A stretch of 64,000 nt of DNA from Cytophagales bacterium (GCA_022360055.1 JAKSDO010000096.1:1-64000); one strand, 5' to 3'. Counted from the first letter of the stretch, positions 54,270 through 61,195 are shown. Notes: generated by a model not told the origin, from the sequence alone. Program-made: numbers and translations.

Positions 54270-54316
54270 GGGTTTGGCGATGTTTTTTGCCTTAAGATCT
54301 TTAGTTTTTGACTTGA

Positions 54317-54344
54317 AAAAGCCAATCCGGTAGGATTGGCTTTT
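54317..54344. terminator. Bidirectional intrinsic terminator after nrfA
   Basis: AAAAGCCAATCC, loop GGTA, then GGATTGGCTTTT: twelve perfect pairs, with A-tract and T-tract at both ends so it works on either strand. It lies 83 bp after the nrfA stop and separates the nap-nrf operon from the MBL gene. Confidence 0.92.
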
Positions 54345-54426
54345 CTCTCAATACAACAATTTATTATTTATGAATTTTCTACATGGTATTCGAAGTCCTC
54401 AGGGTGTCCCGTAAATGTCCGTAAAT

Positions 54427-55968
54427 CTACTTTAGAGAAACCTTTTTCATATTTAAATCATACTTTGGCATGGCATCTTCACGCTTTTTAGCTGCTTCCC
54501 GCCATTGTGGAACCAACGTCTCCAGGAATTTCTTTTTGTCATTCACCAGCTTTTCCATATCAAGACCGACGTATGCCTGGGCTTTGGTTTTTGTACTTAC
54601 ATCTGCCAGCGGGATTTTACCTCTGTGTCCCAATTCATATGCCAATGTCGCAATTTTCAATCTTGCATCATTTGCCTTCTGAATCCCGGTGCTGATAATC
54701 CTCAGAGTTTCTACAGGGGCATGGAACGCTCCTCCATGGCTGGCGGCAGCATAATCCCAGCGCCATTGGGCGTGTCGAATATCCTGCAGAATATCCTTCA
54801 TTTGGGCTTCGGTCGCACCCTGCTTCCAGGCAAATTCGGCTTCAAGGTGTGTGGTGACGAGCAAGTGTTCCAATGCTCCCCGAATTTCCAATACGCGGTC
54901 CATGTTTTCATAGACGCTGTTGGTCAATTCTTCTTCGCTTTCTCTATGACAAACCTGGCAACTGTTGGAAATATTGTTCAGCGGACTTTGAATCTTATGA
55001 TCCGTGAATTTCACACCCCCCTCGGATTTATAGGGCATATGACAATCTGCACACGCCACACCACGCCTGGCATGGATCCCTGTTTTGAAAATCTCATAGC
55101 CCGGGTGTTGGGCCTTGAGCATTGGAGCTTTACTTAATGCATGCGTCCAGTCGCTGAATTCGATGTCGTCGTAATATTTCTCCACTTCTTCGACCGACAT
55201 GCCATTGTCCCAGGGAAAGGTGAGGTAAGGAACGCCTTCATGAGGTTTTTTCTTGTTGAAATAATATTCTACATGGCATTGCGCACAAACAAGAGATCGC
55301 ATCTCCTGGTGAGTTACTTCATTTATATCTTTCCCCTGCCGTTCAAATGCCTCGATCAATGCCGGTCTGGTAATCTGCAGATCCATGGTTTTTTCGTTAT
55401 GGCAATCTGCACAGCCAATCGGATTTACAATCTCTTCGCCGTGGCGCGACCATTTTCCGGAATAAAACTCCTTTACTCCAATCTCATTCATGAGTCTGGG
55501 GACATCCGGACTTTTACAGGTCCAGCAGGTGGCCGGCATGGGTCCGTCCGTTGGTCCGGTCGGGGCACCTGTTCGCAATGATTTATAAACATCCGTTACA
55601 GCATACACATGACCTTTGGCCTGGTTGTAATCTTTGGCAAACCCATATCCGGCCCAAAGAATTACTAAAGCGGGAAATTGTTCGAGCTGATCAACATGTG
55701 CATTGCCGTTATATTTGCTGAGAAAAGAAGTATCCCTGGTGGCCATATAGGTTTCATATTCTTTTGGGTAGTTCTGGCCCCAGACAATATTTCTGGGTTC
55801 GAATGCCTGAATATCAGCCTTTTTCTGATCCACGAATTGCGCTTCTGTTCGCCGTTCGATGATGTTGGAGGTCAAAAGACCAAGGCCAAACACAATCAGG
55901 GCGGTAATTATAAATAATACCCATCCCAGCCAGGGTCTGGATTGTACGGATTTTCTGATGGTATTCAT
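54427..55968 (-). CDS. nrfA: Cytochrome c nitrite reductase (ammonia-forming), NrfA
   Basis: 513 residues. N-terminal membrane-anchor/signal helix (WLGWVLFIITALIVFGLGLL), then the pentaheme catalytic domain. The active-site heme motif is CWTCK (148-152). Four CxxCH follow: 186-190, 228-232, 306-310 and 337-341. The active-site residues around LKAQHPGYE (Lys285, Gln287, His288) and the Tyr after the third heme (CHVEYYF) match E. coli-type NrfA. It reduces nitrite to ammonium by six electrons in the periplasm, fed by NrfH. Six bases after nrfH; last gene of the operon. Confidence 0.97.
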   Translation of the reverse strand: MNTIRKSVQSRPWLGWVLFIITALIVFGLGLLTSNIIERRTEAQFVDQKKADIQAFEPRNIVWGQNYPKEYETYMATRDTSFLSKYNGNAHVDQLEQFPALVILWAGYGFAKDYNQAKGHVYAVTDVYKSLRTGAPTGPTDGPMPATCWTCKSPDVPRLMNEIGVKEFYSGKWSRHGEEIVNPIGCADCHNEKTMDLQITRPALIEAFERQGKDINEVTHQEMRSLVCAQCHVEYYFNKKKPHEGVPYLTFPWDNGMSVEEVEKYYDDIEFSDWTHALSKAPMLKAQHPGYEIFKTGIHARRGVACADCHMPYKSEGGVKFTDHKIQSPLNNISNSCQVCHRESEEELTNSVYENMDRVLEIRGALEHLLVTTHLEAEFAWKQGATEAQMKDILQDIRHAQWRWDYAAASHGGAFHAPVETLRIISTGIQKANDARLKIATLAYELGHRGKIPLADVSTKTKAQAYVGLDMEKLVNDKKKFLETLVPQWREAAKKREDAMPKYDLNMKKVSLK

Positions 55969-55974
55969 AGTGAT

Positions 55975-56568
55975 TTATTTATTATTCGTGTTTAGATTTC
56001 TTATAAATTCAGGTACCGGACTCCCCGGAAGCGGTACTTTTGAGTTTGGGGTAGAATTTAACCCTTTCACGCGGCCATGAGGTACTTCCCGATGACAATC
56101 CCAGCAAAGCTTGCCATTGTTATGCAGCTTATCTTCAAGAGTTACATGTTGCAATCCAACATTTTGATTTACCCTTTGATGACACCCCTTGCAGTTTTCC
56201 TGCACAACTTCCTGACCTGCTTCATGCATTTTTATCACCTGGGGTTCCATCCGTAACGTGAACATCGTGGCATGTCGCAGGCCGTCTTTGGCTTTGAAAT
56301 AGTATTTGTTCAGAACATTGTTATGGGGGACATGGCAATCGTTACAGGTTGCCACTTCGCGATGACTGCTGTGCTGCCATGTAGCGAATTCCGGCCGCAT
56401 GACGTGGCAATTGACACAGGTTTCCGGTTTATCCGATAAATATGATGCGGCATTTGAAACATAGAACGCGTAGATGAAAATGCCGACAAAAAATGCGATC
56501 AGTATATTTACATAAAAGATCCAGTTGGATGGCGGTTTAAGATAATTTAATAACTTGTTGATGCCCAT
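55975..56568 (-). CDS. nrfH: Cytochrome c nitrite reductase small subunit, NrfH
   Basis: 197 residues, membrane-anchored tetraheme cytochrome of the NapC/NrfH family that moves electrons from the menaquinol pool to NrfA. One N-terminal TM helix (IFYVNILIAFFVGIFIYAFY). Four CxxCH motifs: 51-55, 75-79, 126-130 and 155-159. PETCVNCHVMRPE gives the Met/Asp quinol-site loop typical of NrfH. The C-terminal tail includes HGRVKGLNSTPNSKVPLPG. Spacing of 6 bp to nrfA and 11 bp from the porin gene confirm operon structure. Confidence 0.95.
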   Translation of the reverse strand: MGINKLLNYLKPPSNWIFYVNILIAFFVGIFIYAFYVSNAASYLSDKPETCVNCHVMRPEFATWQHSSHREVATCNDCHVPHNNVLNKYYFKAKDGLRHATMFTLRMEPQVIKMHEAGQEVVQENCKGCHQRVNQNVGLQHVTLEDKLHNNGKLCWDCHREVPHGRVKGLNSTPNSKVPLPGSPVPEFIRNLNTNNK

Positions 56569-56579
56569 AATACTTCGAA

Positions 56580-57887
56580 TTAATCTTTTGCGGTGCTAAA
56601 CAATTGAGGTTTAAATGCGATCATCGCCCACGCCCAGTTGTTCAATGCACTTCGATCTCCTCCGTCTTTTACCGCTTCCATTGCTTCGGTAGCAAACATT
56701 TGCGAATAACCCAGATTAAACTTCACATCCTTTGCCAATACGGCTGTGTACACCAGATCCACCTCGGTTCCCAGGGACGATCCGTAGGTTCCGTTTGCTG
56801 TGCCAAATCCGCGATAAATCTTAACCGGGCTCATAAAATAATGCAGGTTGGCCGCCAGGTTTGATTTATTCCCTATTTTAAATTTCGTTTTTAGATGCAA
56901 GTCAATCAAGCCGGATGTCTTCCCGCCTCCCGCTTGACCGTGGTAATTTCCTACATAAAAATAGTCCATAAATCCGTAAAACTTATGGTTGGTTCCATAT
57001 AACGGATTGAAGGATTTATCTTTATCTTCTCCTCGTGCAGTACCGGAAAGGTATTCGAATCCCAAGGTGAGCGGCGTAATATCCGTGTCGTATGTTCCGT
57101 GAAGAGTAAACATTAATCCGCTTACCTCAACGGCATTCCCGTTTTTCCCTCCCTGGTAGTAAAACTCTCCGTCGAGCTTTACTCCTCCTAAATTGTAGTT
57201 ACCCAATATTGCATAGGTTTGTCGGTGCGCCATGGACGTATCGGTTTGCACCTGCCTGCCATCGTTATGAAACAATGCAGAAATACCGCCGTTTTCAAAT
57301 TTTTTATTCCACCATCCAAATATCATTGTTTTATAATTACTTACCCCAATGTATTCCGTGCCGCCCAGGTTTCTTGGTTCGATTGGATCCATACTTTGAT
57401 TGTATGCAAACGCCAGGTGAAGTTCGCTCTTCCGGTCTGCATTTTTACCGGTAAACAATAGGGCATCGTGGCTTCTTCCCTGTTGCGCCCAATCGAGATT
57501 TCCCAGAAACCGGGCATTGTTGTAATCCATAGCCTGGCGGCCAATTTTAAACCCGTATTTTTCATTAAATGAGTAAGCGGCAAATGCTTCATATACATTG
57601 GTCAAACTTGGATCCTCTTTATATATTTGATCGGCTGCACCCCATATTCGCACATCCTGCAGAGAAATATTTACCCGGATCTTTTCTCTTTTGAAATCAA
57701 AATACAGGCGAGAACGCTGTTCTATAAAAAATGCCGGATCTGTGCTTTTTTCTCTTAACCGTTTAAAACCATTTCGAAATTCCGTTCTGGGGCGCAACTC
57801 GCCGGTCAGGGTAAATTGTGCCGACAGGTCGTTGCTTGCGAATAAGATAAGCAAGGCAACGATTGGGATATGAATTAGTTTTCTCAT
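56580..57887 (-). CDS. Alginate-export-family outer-membrane porin within nap-nrf operon
   Basis: 435 residues with signal peptide (IPIVALLILFASNDLSAQ). Barrel sequence of the alginate_exp family: TLTGELRPRTEFRNGFKRLR, FFIEQRSRLYFDFKREKIRV, VYEAFAAYSFNEKYGFKIGR, QAMDYNNARFLGNLDWAQQG, ending WAWAMIAFKPQLF. Despite the name, members in respiratory operons may pass small anions. Its place between nap and nrf genes suggests nitrate or nitrite passage through the outer membrane, an inference. It follows the small 62-residue gene by 31 bp. Confidence 0.9.
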   Translation of the reverse strand: MRKLIHIPIVALLILFASNDLSAQFTLTGELRPRTEFRNGFKRLREKSTDPAFFIEQRSRLYFDFKREKIRVNISLQDVRIWGAADQIYKEDPSLTNVYEAFAAYSFNEKYGFKIGRQAMDYNNARFLGNLDWAQQGRSHDALLFTGKNADRKSELHLAFAYNQSMDPIEPRNLGGTEYIGVSNYKTMIFGWWNKKFENGGISALFHNDGRQVQTDTSMAHRQTYAILGNYNLGGVKLDGEFYYQGGKNGNAVEVSGLMFTLHGTYDTDITPLTLGFEYLSGTARGEDKDKSFNPLYGTNHKFYGFMDYFYVGNYHGQAGGGKTSGLIDLHLKTKFKIGNKSNLAANLHYFMSPVKIYRGFGTANGTYGSSLGTEVDLVYTAVLAKDVKFNLGYSQMFATEAMEAVKDGGDRSALNNWAWAMIAFKPQLFSTAKD

Positions 57888-57918
57888 AATGCGAATTGTT
57901 AAAAAATTGATGTTTTGG

Positions 57919-58107
57919 TTAAATAATATTCTTACTTCTCAAATCTTTCTTTATGGTAAGCGCCGTGCTTACAACTGCATAGATAAAGCACGGCTGTCCT
58001 ATAAAAATGAAAAGTGTCATCCAAGCCGGTGTCGGGTTGAACACATAAACCAGGCTAATGATTATTCCGATTAAAATGAATATTGCTTCTATTGTAAATC
58101 TTTTCAT
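57919..58107 (-). CDS. Small two-TM protein in nap-nrf operon
   Basis: 62 residues: basic start (MKRFTIEAIFILIGIIISLV), TM1 about 7-22, TM2 about 29-52 (WMTLFIFIGQPCFIYAVVST), basic tail (KKDLRSKNII). It begins 4 bp after the tetraheme gene's stop, so it is surely co-translated. No family recognised. Such small proteins may help assembly of membrane cytochrome complexes; that is a guess. Confidence 0.8.
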   Translation of the reverse strand: MKRFTIEAIFILIGIIISLVYVFNPTPAWMTLFIFIGQPCFIYAVVSTALTIKKDLRSKNII

Positions 58108-58111
58108 TATT

Positions 58112-58837
58112 CTATTGATTATTTACCTTGGCTAAATTTGGTTTTTCATTTATCAATTCGATATACTCTTTCATAGAACCAAGGTCTTCAGAATCAATTC
58201 GGTGTCTATCGCTGATCAGGTTTTTATATTCCGTACTCCCCGGAGTACGCTGTAATCTGGTCGGATGAGCCCTACCATGACAGTTGAGACAACTCACGGA
58301 ATTATCATGAAATTGATCCATAATAGGGGTGTGCATTTTTACTTCCTGAAACTTTTCGGTGGCTTCGTGGCAACTCATGCAGTTGGCATTATTGAATTCA
58401 CCTTTGTATTCGATGGGCTCCTGATAAGTGCCTGTGATGTATCTCATCAGATGACGATAGCCATCGGTTTTCGCTTTAAAATTGCCATTAAATCCATAAT
58501 CTTTATGACAACCGTAGCATTGGTCCTTTGGTATCCAGTTGTTTTTATAATGTCTGGCGGCTAAGGTCATACTTTTTTCATTCACAAGATCATTGGTAAA
58601 TGGTTTCATCACATGGCAGCTCTGACAGGCTTCAACCGTTTTACTGGTCTCAAATACATGATAATTTGCCAGAAAAACCATGACTGCCGGAAGTACGATC
58701 AAGCCTGGGAAGACGGCTTTTTTTACCCGTCTGCTTATCGTTTCACGTTTTTTGAGTATATAGACTACAAAGCCCAAATTGAGGATGAAGATTACAACGC
58801 TCAATATTTTCACAAGATCAACTATGCCTCCGATCAT
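58112..58837 (-). CDS. NapC/NirT-type tetraheme cytochrome c
   Basis: 241 residues. Two hydrophobic segments (about 5-27 and 43-59), then four CxxCH heme motifs: 71-75 (CQSCH), 107-111 (CYGCH), 153-157 (CMSCH) and 183-187 (CLNCH). Two N-terminal membrane segments are unusual, since NapC/NrfH have one. Begins 3 bp after the napA-type gene, so it is probably the electron donor for that enzyme, replacing NapB/NapC. Longer than NrfH and with a different second half, so not a simple duplicate. Confidence 0.92.
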   Translation of the reverse strand: MIGGIVDLVKILSVVIFILNLGFVVYILKKRETISRRVKKAVFPGLIVLPAVMVFLANYHVFETSKTVEACQSCHVMKPFTNDLVNEKSMTLAARHYKNNWIPKDQCYGCHKDYGFNGNFKAKTDGYRHLMRYITGTYQEPIEYKGEFNNANCMSCHEATEKFQEVKMHTPIMDQFHDNSVSCLNCHGRAHPTRLQRTPGSTEYKNLISDRHRIDSEDLGSMKEYIELINEKPNLAKVNNQ

Positions 58838-58840
58838 AAC

Positions 58841-61129
58841 TTATAATTTTTCTACTTCCACTACTTTTTTTACTGAGACTGCTGTCACCTTGTATTCCGG
58901 TTCTTTCGATACCGGATCAAAATTATCTGCCACGACTTCATTTACTAGGAATTTCGGATCATAGAATGAGGCGAACACAACGCCTTTGGTTTCATGATCA
59001 GAGATTTTTACTTTAGCGATAATGCTTCCGTATCTACTGGAGACTTCTATTTTATCCCCATCTTTGATTCCCATATTCTGAGCATCTTGTGGATTCAGAT
59101 AGAATACTCCTGGCCCGCTTCCTTTCGATAAGGATGGGATTTTGTCCGTCATGGTGCCCGTATGCCACTGCTCAACAACCCGCCCTGTTGTCAGGTGCAT
59201 TGGGGAACTTTCGGAAAGCTGTTCATTGGAAGGAATATAAGGCCTTAGGAAGATAATGGCCTTATCATCCGGTTTGCCGTAAAACTGGATGTCTTTTCCC
59301 GCTTTTACAAACGGATCACCTTTCATGTAACGCCTTTCCGTACCGGGATGATCTTCAGTGGGGCAAGGCCATTGCAATCCTCTTTCCTTTCTGAGACGCG
59401 CCCGGGTCATACCTTCAAAATTGTAATAGCTTGCTGCTGAGAATTTTCTGTATTCATCCCAGGCTTCTTCGGGAGTTTTATAAGCAATCAGATTTCCATA
59501 GCCCATTCGGTTGGCAAAATCAACCAATATGTCAAAGTCACTTTTCGCCTCTCCCGGTGGGTCAAGCAATTTCTCAATCAATTGATACCTCCTTTCAGAC
59601 TGACCATATACGCCTTCTTTTTCAATCCAAAGTGCGGCAGGCAGAAATACATCGGCATGCTTAGCTGTTTCCGTATCTTCAAATACATCTGCGACAACAA
59701 GAAAGCATTTATCCAATCCTTCTTTCACAGGTTTCAAATTAGGCATGGATTGAGCCGGATTTGTACACATTATGATGGCTGCCTTCACACGTTCATCATT
59801 CATAGCTCTGAAAAGATTTACAGCATCTAACCCGGGCTTGGGAGCTATGGTTCCTTTTGGAACTCCCCAAAGCTCTTCTACTTCATTGCGGTGTTTTTCA
59901 TTGGCAACAAGCCGGCCATTGGGTAAAATATGCGAAAGCGAGCCGGTATCTCTTACCCCTCCGCATGCATTGCTTTGTCCGGTTAGTGAAAGGGGCGAAG
60001 CGCCGGGTCTACAGATTTGCTGCGACAGCAGATGCAAGCTGTTTAGGGTGTTGTTTAGAAATACCCCCTGAGATCGCTGATTGATTCCCATGGTCCACAT
60101 AGAAAGTGTTGCTTTGGAGCTTGCAAATTCGTACGCCACTTCTTCGATCTGGCGAGGTGTAAGCCCAAGTGTTCCGGCTACTTTTTGAGGGGTATAATCT
60201 TCAAGAAATTTGGCGTAATCCTCAAACGTAACTGTTCTTTTACCATCGCTAAATTTGATATGCTCCACTAAAAATTCCGGATCATACCATTCATTCCTTA
60301 CAATCTCGTAAGCCATGGCATTGAGCAGAAGCATATCTGTTCCCGGAACTACCGGCAAGTGAATATCAGCTTTTTTAGCCGTCATTGTTTTGCGGGGATC
60401 CACACAAATAATCTTTACATTCGGATTGGACTTTTTACGGATCATGATCCGCTCCCACAGCGGCGGATGACATTCGTACGTATTTGATCCAATCAGGAAA
60501 AAACACTCGGCATGGTCGATATCGTCGTATCCACCCGGAGGTTCATCTTTACCAAATGTTTGCGTATATCCAACGGCGGCGGAGGCCATACAAAGCCTTG
60601 GATTCCCGTCAACATTATTGGTGCCAAATCCGGCCTTGAATAATTTGTTGGCCGTATAGCTTTCTTCAATTAGCAGTTGACCGGAGCCATAATAAGCTAC
60701 ACTGTTTGGGCCATGTTGGTCAATTGCGCTTTTAAATTTTTCGGTAATCAGGGACATTACCTCATTCCAAGATGCTTCTTCCAGCTTACCGTTTTTCCTG
60801 ATTTTTGGTTTTGTAGCCCGGTTTTGTAGCTGTGTCAATTCGGCGAGCATGTTGCCCTTGATGCAGATTACTCCTTTGTTGTGCGCTTCCAGGTCTCCTC
60901 TGATCCTGGTAACTTTTTTGCCGTGCATGCCTACCATAATACCACAGCCTGTTCCACAATATCTGCAGACTGACTTGTGCCATGATCTCGTAGGTCCTTT
61001 GTCAACAATGATTTCCGTAAGTCCCCAGCCTCCAAGCGCCATGCCGCCCACGGCCGTTACGCCTGTTCCCAGTTTTAAAAATCGACGGCGGCTCAAGCCG
61101 CCATTTGATGAATTTTCACTCATTTTCAT
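58841..61129 (-). CDS. napA: NapA-type periplasmic nitrate reductase catalytic subunit
   Basis: 762 residues. Twin-arginine signal (LSRRRFLKLGTGVTAVGGM, Arg14-16). [4Fe-4S] cysteines at 55, 58, 62 and 89 (CRYCGTGCG...VICIKG). Molybdenum ligand Cys180 in NPRLCMASAAVGY, followed by GKDEPPGGYDDIDHAE and GSNTYECHPPLWERI, the NapA pattern. Later MGINQRSQGVFLNNT and LTTGRVVEQWHTGTMT complete the bis-MGD fold. Reduces nitrate to nitrite in the periplasm. No napB, napD, napF or napGH is next to it; first gene of the operon. napA is a homology name, and a related oxyanion reductase is not excluded. Confidence 0.93.
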   Translation of the reverse strand: MKMSENSSNGGLSRRRFLKLGTGVTAVGGMALGGWGLTEIIVDKGPTRSWHKSVCRYCGTGCGIMVGMHGKKVTRIRGDLEAHNKGVICIKGNMLAELTQLQNRATKPKIRKNGKLEEASWNEVMSLITEKFKSAIDQHGPNSVAYYGSGQLLIEESYTANKLFKAGFGTNNVDGNPRLCMASAAVGYTQTFGKDEPPGGYDDIDHAECFFLIGSNTYECHPPLWERIMIRKKSNPNVKIICVDPRKTMTAKKADIHLPVVPGTDMLLLNAMAYEIVRNEWYDPEFLVEHIKFSDGKRTVTFEDYAKFLEDYTPQKVAGTLGLTPRQIEEVAYEFASSKATLSMWTMGINQRSQGVFLNNTLNSLHLLSQQICRPGASPLSLTGQSNACGGVRDTGSLSHILPNGRLVANEKHRNEVEELWGVPKGTIAPKPGLDAVNLFRAMNDERVKAAIIMCTNPAQSMPNLKPVKEGLDKCFLVVADVFEDTETAKHADVFLPAALWIEKEGVYGQSERRYQLIEKLLDPPGEAKSDFDILVDFANRMGYGNLIAYKTPEEAWDEYRKFSAASYYNFEGMTRARLRKERGLQWPCPTEDHPGTERRYMKGDPFVKAGKDIQFYGKPDDKAIIFLRPYIPSNEQLSESSPMHLTTGRVVEQWHTGTMTDKIPSLSKGSGPGVFYLNPQDAQNMGIKDGDKIEVSSRYGSIIAKVKISDHETKGVVFASFYDPKFLVNEVVADNFDPVSKEPEYKVTAVSVKKVVEVEKL

Positions 61130-61154
61130 CGCCTTGTTGGTATTCAGGTTTAAA

Positions 61155-61160
61155 ACAAAT
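61155..61160 (-). promoter_or_regulatory. Possible -7 element of nap-nrf promoter
   Basis: On the minus strand this reads TATTTG, a partial match to TAnnTTTG. The CRP/FNR-like palindrome would lie about 30 bp upstream of it, close to where an activator overlaps the -35 region. Weak evidence. Confidence 0.25.
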
Positions 61161-61177
61161 ACTGAAGACAGATTTTG

Positions 61178-61195
61178 CTTATGATCGAAATCATA
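61178..61195. promoter_or_regulatory. CRP/FNR-like palindrome upstream of nap-nrf operon
   Basis: TTATGAT-CGAA-ATCATAA, perfect 7-bp arms with a 4-bp spacer, the geometry of TTGAT-N4-ATCAA sites. It lies 49-66 bp before the napA ATG in the napA/DCC spacer. Anaerobic or nitrogen-oxide control by a CRP/FNR-family activator is likely but the factor is not in this window. Confidence 0.6.

Follow-up and report, generated by a model that had tools for sequence, protein, structure and literature searches.

A conserved module of NapA, a tetraheme cytochrome and a small membrane protein, apparently without NapD, in a putative nitrate ammonification operon of a Cytophagales bacterium

The window analysed here is a stretch of 64,000 nucleotides from a Cytophagales bacterium (GCA_022360055.1 JAKSDO010000096.1:1-64000). 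On its minus strand it contains a unit of six genes, which are assigned to a periplasmic nitrate reductase (NapA), a tetraheme cytochrome, a small membrane protein (SMP), an outer membrane porin and the nitrite reductase proteins NrfH and NrfA. The best explanation for this unit, which we consider probable, is an operon for respiratory nitrate ammonification, the first three genes of which represent a conserved, NapD-independent and membrane-tethered nitrate reductase module. The unusual point is less the compact order of the six genes than this NapD-less module of NapA, cytochrome and SMP, which is common to several phyla.

NapA loci were taken from relatives and from GTDB contigs, and their neighbourhoods were scanned. 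Besides the window, 26 of the surveyed loci comprise napA and, directly behind it, the cytochrome gene and the SMP gene, always in this order. Further module loci are located on Persicobacter megaplasmids (two) and in other genomes of the genus of G081 (four). After subtraction of one locus that had been counted twice (L031/L114), the total comes to about 30 module loci, distributed over Bacteroidota, Planctomycetota, Acidobacteriota and Myxococcota; a genome bin labelled just Proteobacteria holds one of the loci. NapA, the cytochrome and SMP are a fixed module, found in at least four phyla. Within 7 kb none of the 26 loci encodes NapD or NapH. Nearly all of the other dissimilatory-type NapA loci have NapD and/or NapH, and none of them has the module cytochrome or SMP. 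The small protein is present also in the distant locus L115, the NapA of which is 50% identical, and in the high-GC group of G081. As a separate observation, apparent molybdenum-cofactor synthesis genes (moaA, moaE, moeA and mobA, recognized by eye) adjoin the module in L034, L044, L154, L156, L158 and L184.

The window NapA contains the twin-arginine (Tat) motif SRRRFLKLG, the Fe-S motif CRYCGTGC with a fourth cysteine in GVICIKG, and the molybdenum ligand motif RLCM. Its best solved relative is the monomeric NapA from Desulfovibrio desulfuricans (2JIO, 804 bits), followed by Escherichia coli NapA (551 bits). The D. desulfuricans protein matches over the full length, and the 4Fe4S, RLCM (Mo-Cys) and INQR stretches are common to both. 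The scores with the NCBIfam NapA equivalog models (646.7 and 623 bits) are under the cut-offs of 904 and 930; these cut-offs derive from models with 830 residues that represent the E. coli type. Due to its full-length similarity, which is higher than that to other molybdoenzymes, its 4Fe4S and Mo-Cys motifs and its Tat signal, the protein is assigned as a NapA catalytic subunit. Two other molybdopterin-oxidoreductase matches occur in the genome; since both are much weaker, no good candidate for a nitrate reductase other than NapA was found there.

In a FastTree tree of 83 rows, a single clade unites the module NapAs, with a Shimodaira-Hasegawa (SH) support of 99 and one state change, and the same clade is obtained with IQ-TREE from 51 rows (99 in the SH-like approximate likelihood ratio test). 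The D. desulfuricans NapA is placed outside. Two NapAs inside the clade (L036, L037) come without a visible module, their contigs ending just after napA. It is very improbable that the NapA-type enzyme reduces a substrate other than nitrate, even though the substrate cannot be fixed surely from a sequence and formate dehydrogenases and other oxidoreductases also belong to the wider family. The full-length similarity to the D. desulfuricans enzyme with its shared motifs speaks against it, as does the presence of NrfHA in the same operon in the window, L032 and L033. The examination of neighbourhood and phylogeny that an earlier note on this DNA had proposed points the same way, the window NapA grouping with true NapAs.

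The earlier note had described NapB, NapD and NapGH as missing, and at the locus this is indeed the case. NapD was moreover detected nowhere in the window genome, neither with PF03927 nor with a profile including members from Bacteroidota. NapGH-like matches in this genome are weak and none lies near napA; no NapH is above the cut-off. In the other module genomes PF03927 likewise revealed no NapD above the cut-off. However, PF03927 is too insensitive in Bacteroidota, where it misses the real NapDs of G020 and G022, and therefore the conclusion on the absence of NapD rests on our own profile. Eight NapDs, including four from Bacteroidota, went into this profile, and it recovers NapD in all eight source genomes as well as a second NapD in one of these and one in G061. 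Searched genome-wide, 27 of the 28 module genomes are without a match. The exception is again G061, which has its module at L033 and a NapD directly upstream of a second NapA in a separate napD-napA-cytochromes locus (L183).

A functional NapD might still be present but too divergent to be detected, in which case the module would not be free of this chaperone. NapD is short and variable, and the failure of PF03927 illustrates how it can be overlooked. Nevertheless we regard a hidden NapD as unlikely, because our own profile found every known NapD of the set and two that were not used in building it, no NapD match was obtained near the module and no other recurring small open reading frame (ORF) was seen beside it. 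TorD/NarJ proteins were considered as substitute chaperones and rejected: the search for chaperones elsewhere, also suggested earlier, gave none of them in the window genome and, among 24 module genomes covered, none in 20.

In published work NapD is treated as essential (PMC10609526; PMC5217062), and a denitrificans strain without napD is described as having no NapAB (PMC5217062). Four types of nap operon are listed in a review of 2026, namely napEDABC, napDAGHB, napCMADGH and napAGHBFLD, and all of them include napD (PMC13223375). The feature common to these four types is thus lacking in the window module. The napCMADGH type is in addition characterized by NapM and NapGH; here no NapH is found over the cut-off or near the module, and the profile alignment between the cytochrome and NapM spans 28 columns only. 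Judged by gene content, the module is a fifth nap architecture beside the four listed. Our literature search did not find a description of this arrangement, but subscription journals were poorly covered and an earlier description is possible. A NapA clade in at least four phyla, seemingly without NapD, makes it testable which step of NapA maturation needs a dedicated chaperone, and among complete Nap systems the module is possibly the smallest. It may be missed in surveys which keep only NapAs with familiar partner genes (as in PMC12769810), and this bears on gene-based estimates of nitrate-to-ammonium reduction.

If neither NapB nor NapGH is encoded at the locus, electrons have to reach NapA by another way. 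Delivery through the tetraheme protein, as claimed earlier, is kept as the most economical reading of the gene content. The cytochrome (241 residues) has four CXXCH motifs and two predicted transmembrane segments, while NrfH has one hydrophobic helix. The Pfam family NapC/NirT (NNT) is matched by 16 of 17 cytochrome members. Alignment of the cytochrome profile with NrfH (hhalign) gave a probability of 98.6 and an E-value of 1.3e-15 over 119 columns; the two families have an invariant first-heme motif, CxxCHxM, in common and resemble each other in an (A)KxDGxRH stretch. Because of the Pfam and NrfH profile matches, the CxxCHxM motif and the little alignment with NapM, we place the cytochrome in the NapC/NrfH family, as a divergent member, and consider it the likely quinol dehydrogenase. 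With this family it shares the homology, the four hemes, the N-terminal membrane anchor and the type of the first heme. It differs in its extra transmembrane helix, in scores below the curated cut-offs and in its constant 62-residue neighbour. An identity as NapM was rejected on account of the short alignment. A sequence search of the PDB with the cytochrome profile gave nothing significant, and structure alignment with VIA-align a single meaningless helix match (Z 2.6). One cytochrome deserves separate mention: that of L046 (5496-6176) is missing the first membrane helix and has an insertion of about 60 residues between the first heme and the SLAARH motif, and a small protein is still encoded downstream.

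Alternatively, the cytochrome could be a mere electron relay similar to NapM, and NrfH of the operon, or another dehydrogenase, would oxidise quinol and feed both NapA and NrfA. An NrfH is encoded in the window operon, as this explanation demands, but in most module loci with flanks read NrfHA is not in attendance. As the cytochrome also has membrane helices and a CxxCHxM motif of its own and matches NrfH rather than NapM, we find a simple relay quite unlikely.

The small protein of 62 residues was regarded in the earlier note as an unusual passenger, and this does not hold. Wherever the sequence of a module locus can be read, SMP comes after the cytochrome, and pN/pS ratios of 0.05-0.18 in four pairs indicate purifying selection. 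Two transmembrane helices are predicted, which fold into a two-helix hairpin in the AlphaFold2 (AF2) model (predicted local distance difference test, pLDDT, 89), and a short C-terminal segment of the type KDLxxKxVL is conserved. The protein has no Pfam match at E 0.1, and NapE is not among the families matched by 16 relatives. The pair of cytochrome and SMP occurs also in three Planctomycetota genomes (L148, L149, L150) with no NapA seen nearby, and therefore we tie the small protein to the cytochrome and not to NapA. In L149 the pair adjoins genes for another tetraheme cytochrome, a nine-heme cytochrome, a Rieske protein and a cytochrome b. These occurrences suggest that cytochrome and SMP may be a reusable quinol-oxidising unit.

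The small protein could act in assembly, either in maturation of the cytochrome or in export of NapA, instead of in electron transfer. Its small size, the lack of a redox motif and of a known family, and the conserved C-terminal segment would fit such a role, which we consider rather unlikely. Its company with the cytochrome where no NapA is seen, once beside Rieske and cytochrome b genes, speaks against export of NapA but fits assembly as well as structure. Apart from this, a 71-residue protein that looks two-helical is encoded on the minus strand immediately behind the gene for a distant relative of the cytochrome (L151, 6323-6538); it is maybe a diverged small protein, which our profile did not detect.

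According to the preferred explanation, respiratory ammonification with a NapD-independent module, the two-helix tetraheme cytochrome and SMP would form a quinol-oxidising membrane unit with four transmembrane helices in total. Electrons would pass from menaquinol over the four periplasmic hemes of the cytochrome to NapA, entering at its 4Fe4S cluster, and NapA would reduce nitrate to nitrite at a Cys-ligated molybdenum bis-molybdopterin guanine dinucleotide cofactor. NapA itself might be held at the membrane, its Tat signal being kept as an anchor in the subclade of the window or turned into that of a lipoprotein in the sister subclade. In the latter, a lipobox follows the Tat motif in all seven NapAs (L115, L153-L158). 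NapAs of the window subclade have a Trp and a Glu right after the hydrophobic stretch, conserved across phyla, and we infer that both features serve membrane attachment. NrfHA, with its own quinol dehydrogenase, would reduce nitrite to ammonium, the porin would pass nitrate or nitrite across the outer membrane, and a regulator of the FNR/CRP family could act at a palindrome upstream of napA. We lean, though not strongly, towards an extended interpretation, in which the fifth architecture is a self-contained, membrane-bound and NapD-independent nitrate reductase, its NapA being supplied with electrons by a new kind of quinol dehydrogenase that consists of two subunits. From a single origin among NapAs it would have spread to at least four phyla, the pair being used also with other partners, e.g. 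a Rieske/cytochrome b complex.

Several results weigh against parts of this scheme. The cytochrome is far under the curated cut-offs for NrfH (53.5 of 134.2 bits) and NapC/NirT (18.9 of 310.6 bits); its AF2 model, in which the hemes are not included, is of moderate quality (pLDDT 73.5), and Foldseek found no match for this model in the PDB. What argues for the NapA anchor are motifs, and a few NapD-type NapAs likewise have a Cys in the region behind the Tat motif. At most module loci no copy of the palindrome was detected ahead of napA, and because of this a control by it would be local to some lineages.

Similarities to known systems are partial. The Nap of D. desulfuricans 27774 (napCMADGH; 2NAP/2JIO) also has a monomeric NapA of about 755 residues, no NapB and a multiheme cytochrome partner; NapC, NapM, NapD, NapG and NapH are found there (PMC13223375), in contrast to the two-helix cytochrome and the 62-residue protein without NapD and NapGH here. 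In Sporomusa ovata (napGHCAD and nrfHA) a NapC-type tetraheme cytochrome is encoded beside a NapB-less NapA, and nrfHA is located in this region too (PMC12780646). However, NapGH and NapD are present, NapC has one transmembrane helix and no SMP is described. Caldithrix abyssi has a NapA without NapB and NapC and encodes nitrite reduction next door (PMC5317091), but this system includes NapM, NapGH and Rieske/cytochrome b proteins, and the nitrite step is performed by eHao and not by NrfHA. Within Bacteroidota, a locus of napD, napA and two cytochrome genes (G016, G022, G035 and the second locus of G061) likewise encodes a periplasmic NapA; there NapD is upstream, the cytochromes are different, further subunits follow downstream and NapA is on a separate branch.

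All six ORFs of the window unit were found in the order claimed before, with gaps of 3, 4, 31, 11 and 6 bp from napA to nrfA that agree with the range given there, and the identities of NapA, NrfH and NrfA support its designation as a putative nitrate-to-ammonium operon (Table 1). NrfH (168 bits, NCBIfam cut-off 134.2) and NrfA (668 bits, cut-off 595) are both above their curated cut-offs, which together with the CWTCK heme motif assigns them to NrfHA. The full order with porin and nrfHA in one unit was seen only in the window, a Fulvivirga metagenome-assembled genome (MAG; L032) and a Flammeovirgaceae MAG (L033). In the latter two a large membrane protein which by eye resembles CcsBA is encoded behind the operon, and in L031 nrfHA is placed upstream of napA instead.

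Table 1. Features of the putative nitrate ammonification operon and its flanks in the window.
Feature	Position	Strand	Description
nrfA	54427..55968	minus	pentaheme ammonia-forming nitrite reductase; CWTCK heme and four CXXCH; predicted N-terminal transmembrane segment
nrfH	55975..56568	minus	tetraheme quinol dehydrogenase of nitrite reductase
porin gene	56580..57887	minus	Alginate_exp-family outer-membrane porin; recurrent nap/nas neighbour in Bacteroidota
small-protein gene (SMP)	57919..58107	minus	62-residue two-helix membrane protein; constant partner of the tetraheme cytochrome
tetraheme cytochrome gene	58112..58837	minus	two N-terminal transmembrane helices; likely divergent NrfH/NapC-type quinol dehydrogenase; first heme CQSCHVM
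napA	58841..61129	minus	762 residues, monomeric-type periplasmic nitrate reductase; Tat signal, 4Fe4S and Mo-Cys motifs
palindrome TATGATTTCGATCATA	61180..61195	.	exact; FNR/CRP-type operator candidate
hairpin	54313..54345 (approx.)	.	possible terminator on both strands

The porin (Pfam Alginate_exp, 57.6 bits) had been called an unusual passenger as well, but in Bacteroidota its homologues adjoin Nap or Nas genes, and they do so in several arrangements. They follow the small protein in the window, L032, L033 and L184, are located immediately upstream in L185, divergent in L034 and L041 and upstream of napD in L118, and occur near nas-type (fused) genes in L097 and L098. The natural reading would be a channel for nitrate or nitrite.

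The hairpin downstream of nrfA, described before as a bidirectional terminator, folds well on both strands (-19.6 and -18.7 kcal/mol; z -5.8 and -4.9). Upstream of napA the CRP/FNR-like palindrome was confirmed as exact, with TATGAT and ATCATA around TTCG. As a single match its core, TGAT-N4-ATCA, is weak, with three occurrences in the window and 2.7 expected, but the palindrome is one of a set of genomic sites: the 16-mer TATGAY-N4-RTCATA occurs ten times in the genome and the reversed control once. Flammeovirga has a near-identical palindrome at a similar distance before napA. On the best reading the palindrome is a candidate FNR/CRP-type operator, which would place the operon in a regulon of this type. 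Another site is located 114 bp upstream of a gene for a HypB-like (hydrogenase maturation) protein (L169), and one precedes a c-type cytochrome gene by 78 bp; this gene has a gene for a CRP-family regulator in front of it and is followed by an ORF that by eye resembles NosZ, with no Pfam match on the cut fragment. Around this regulator, cytochrome and NosZ-like ORF in G000:C245 (L175-L177), three copies of the palindrome are found besides that of the operon, possibly marking an N2O respiration cluster in the regulon of the operon.

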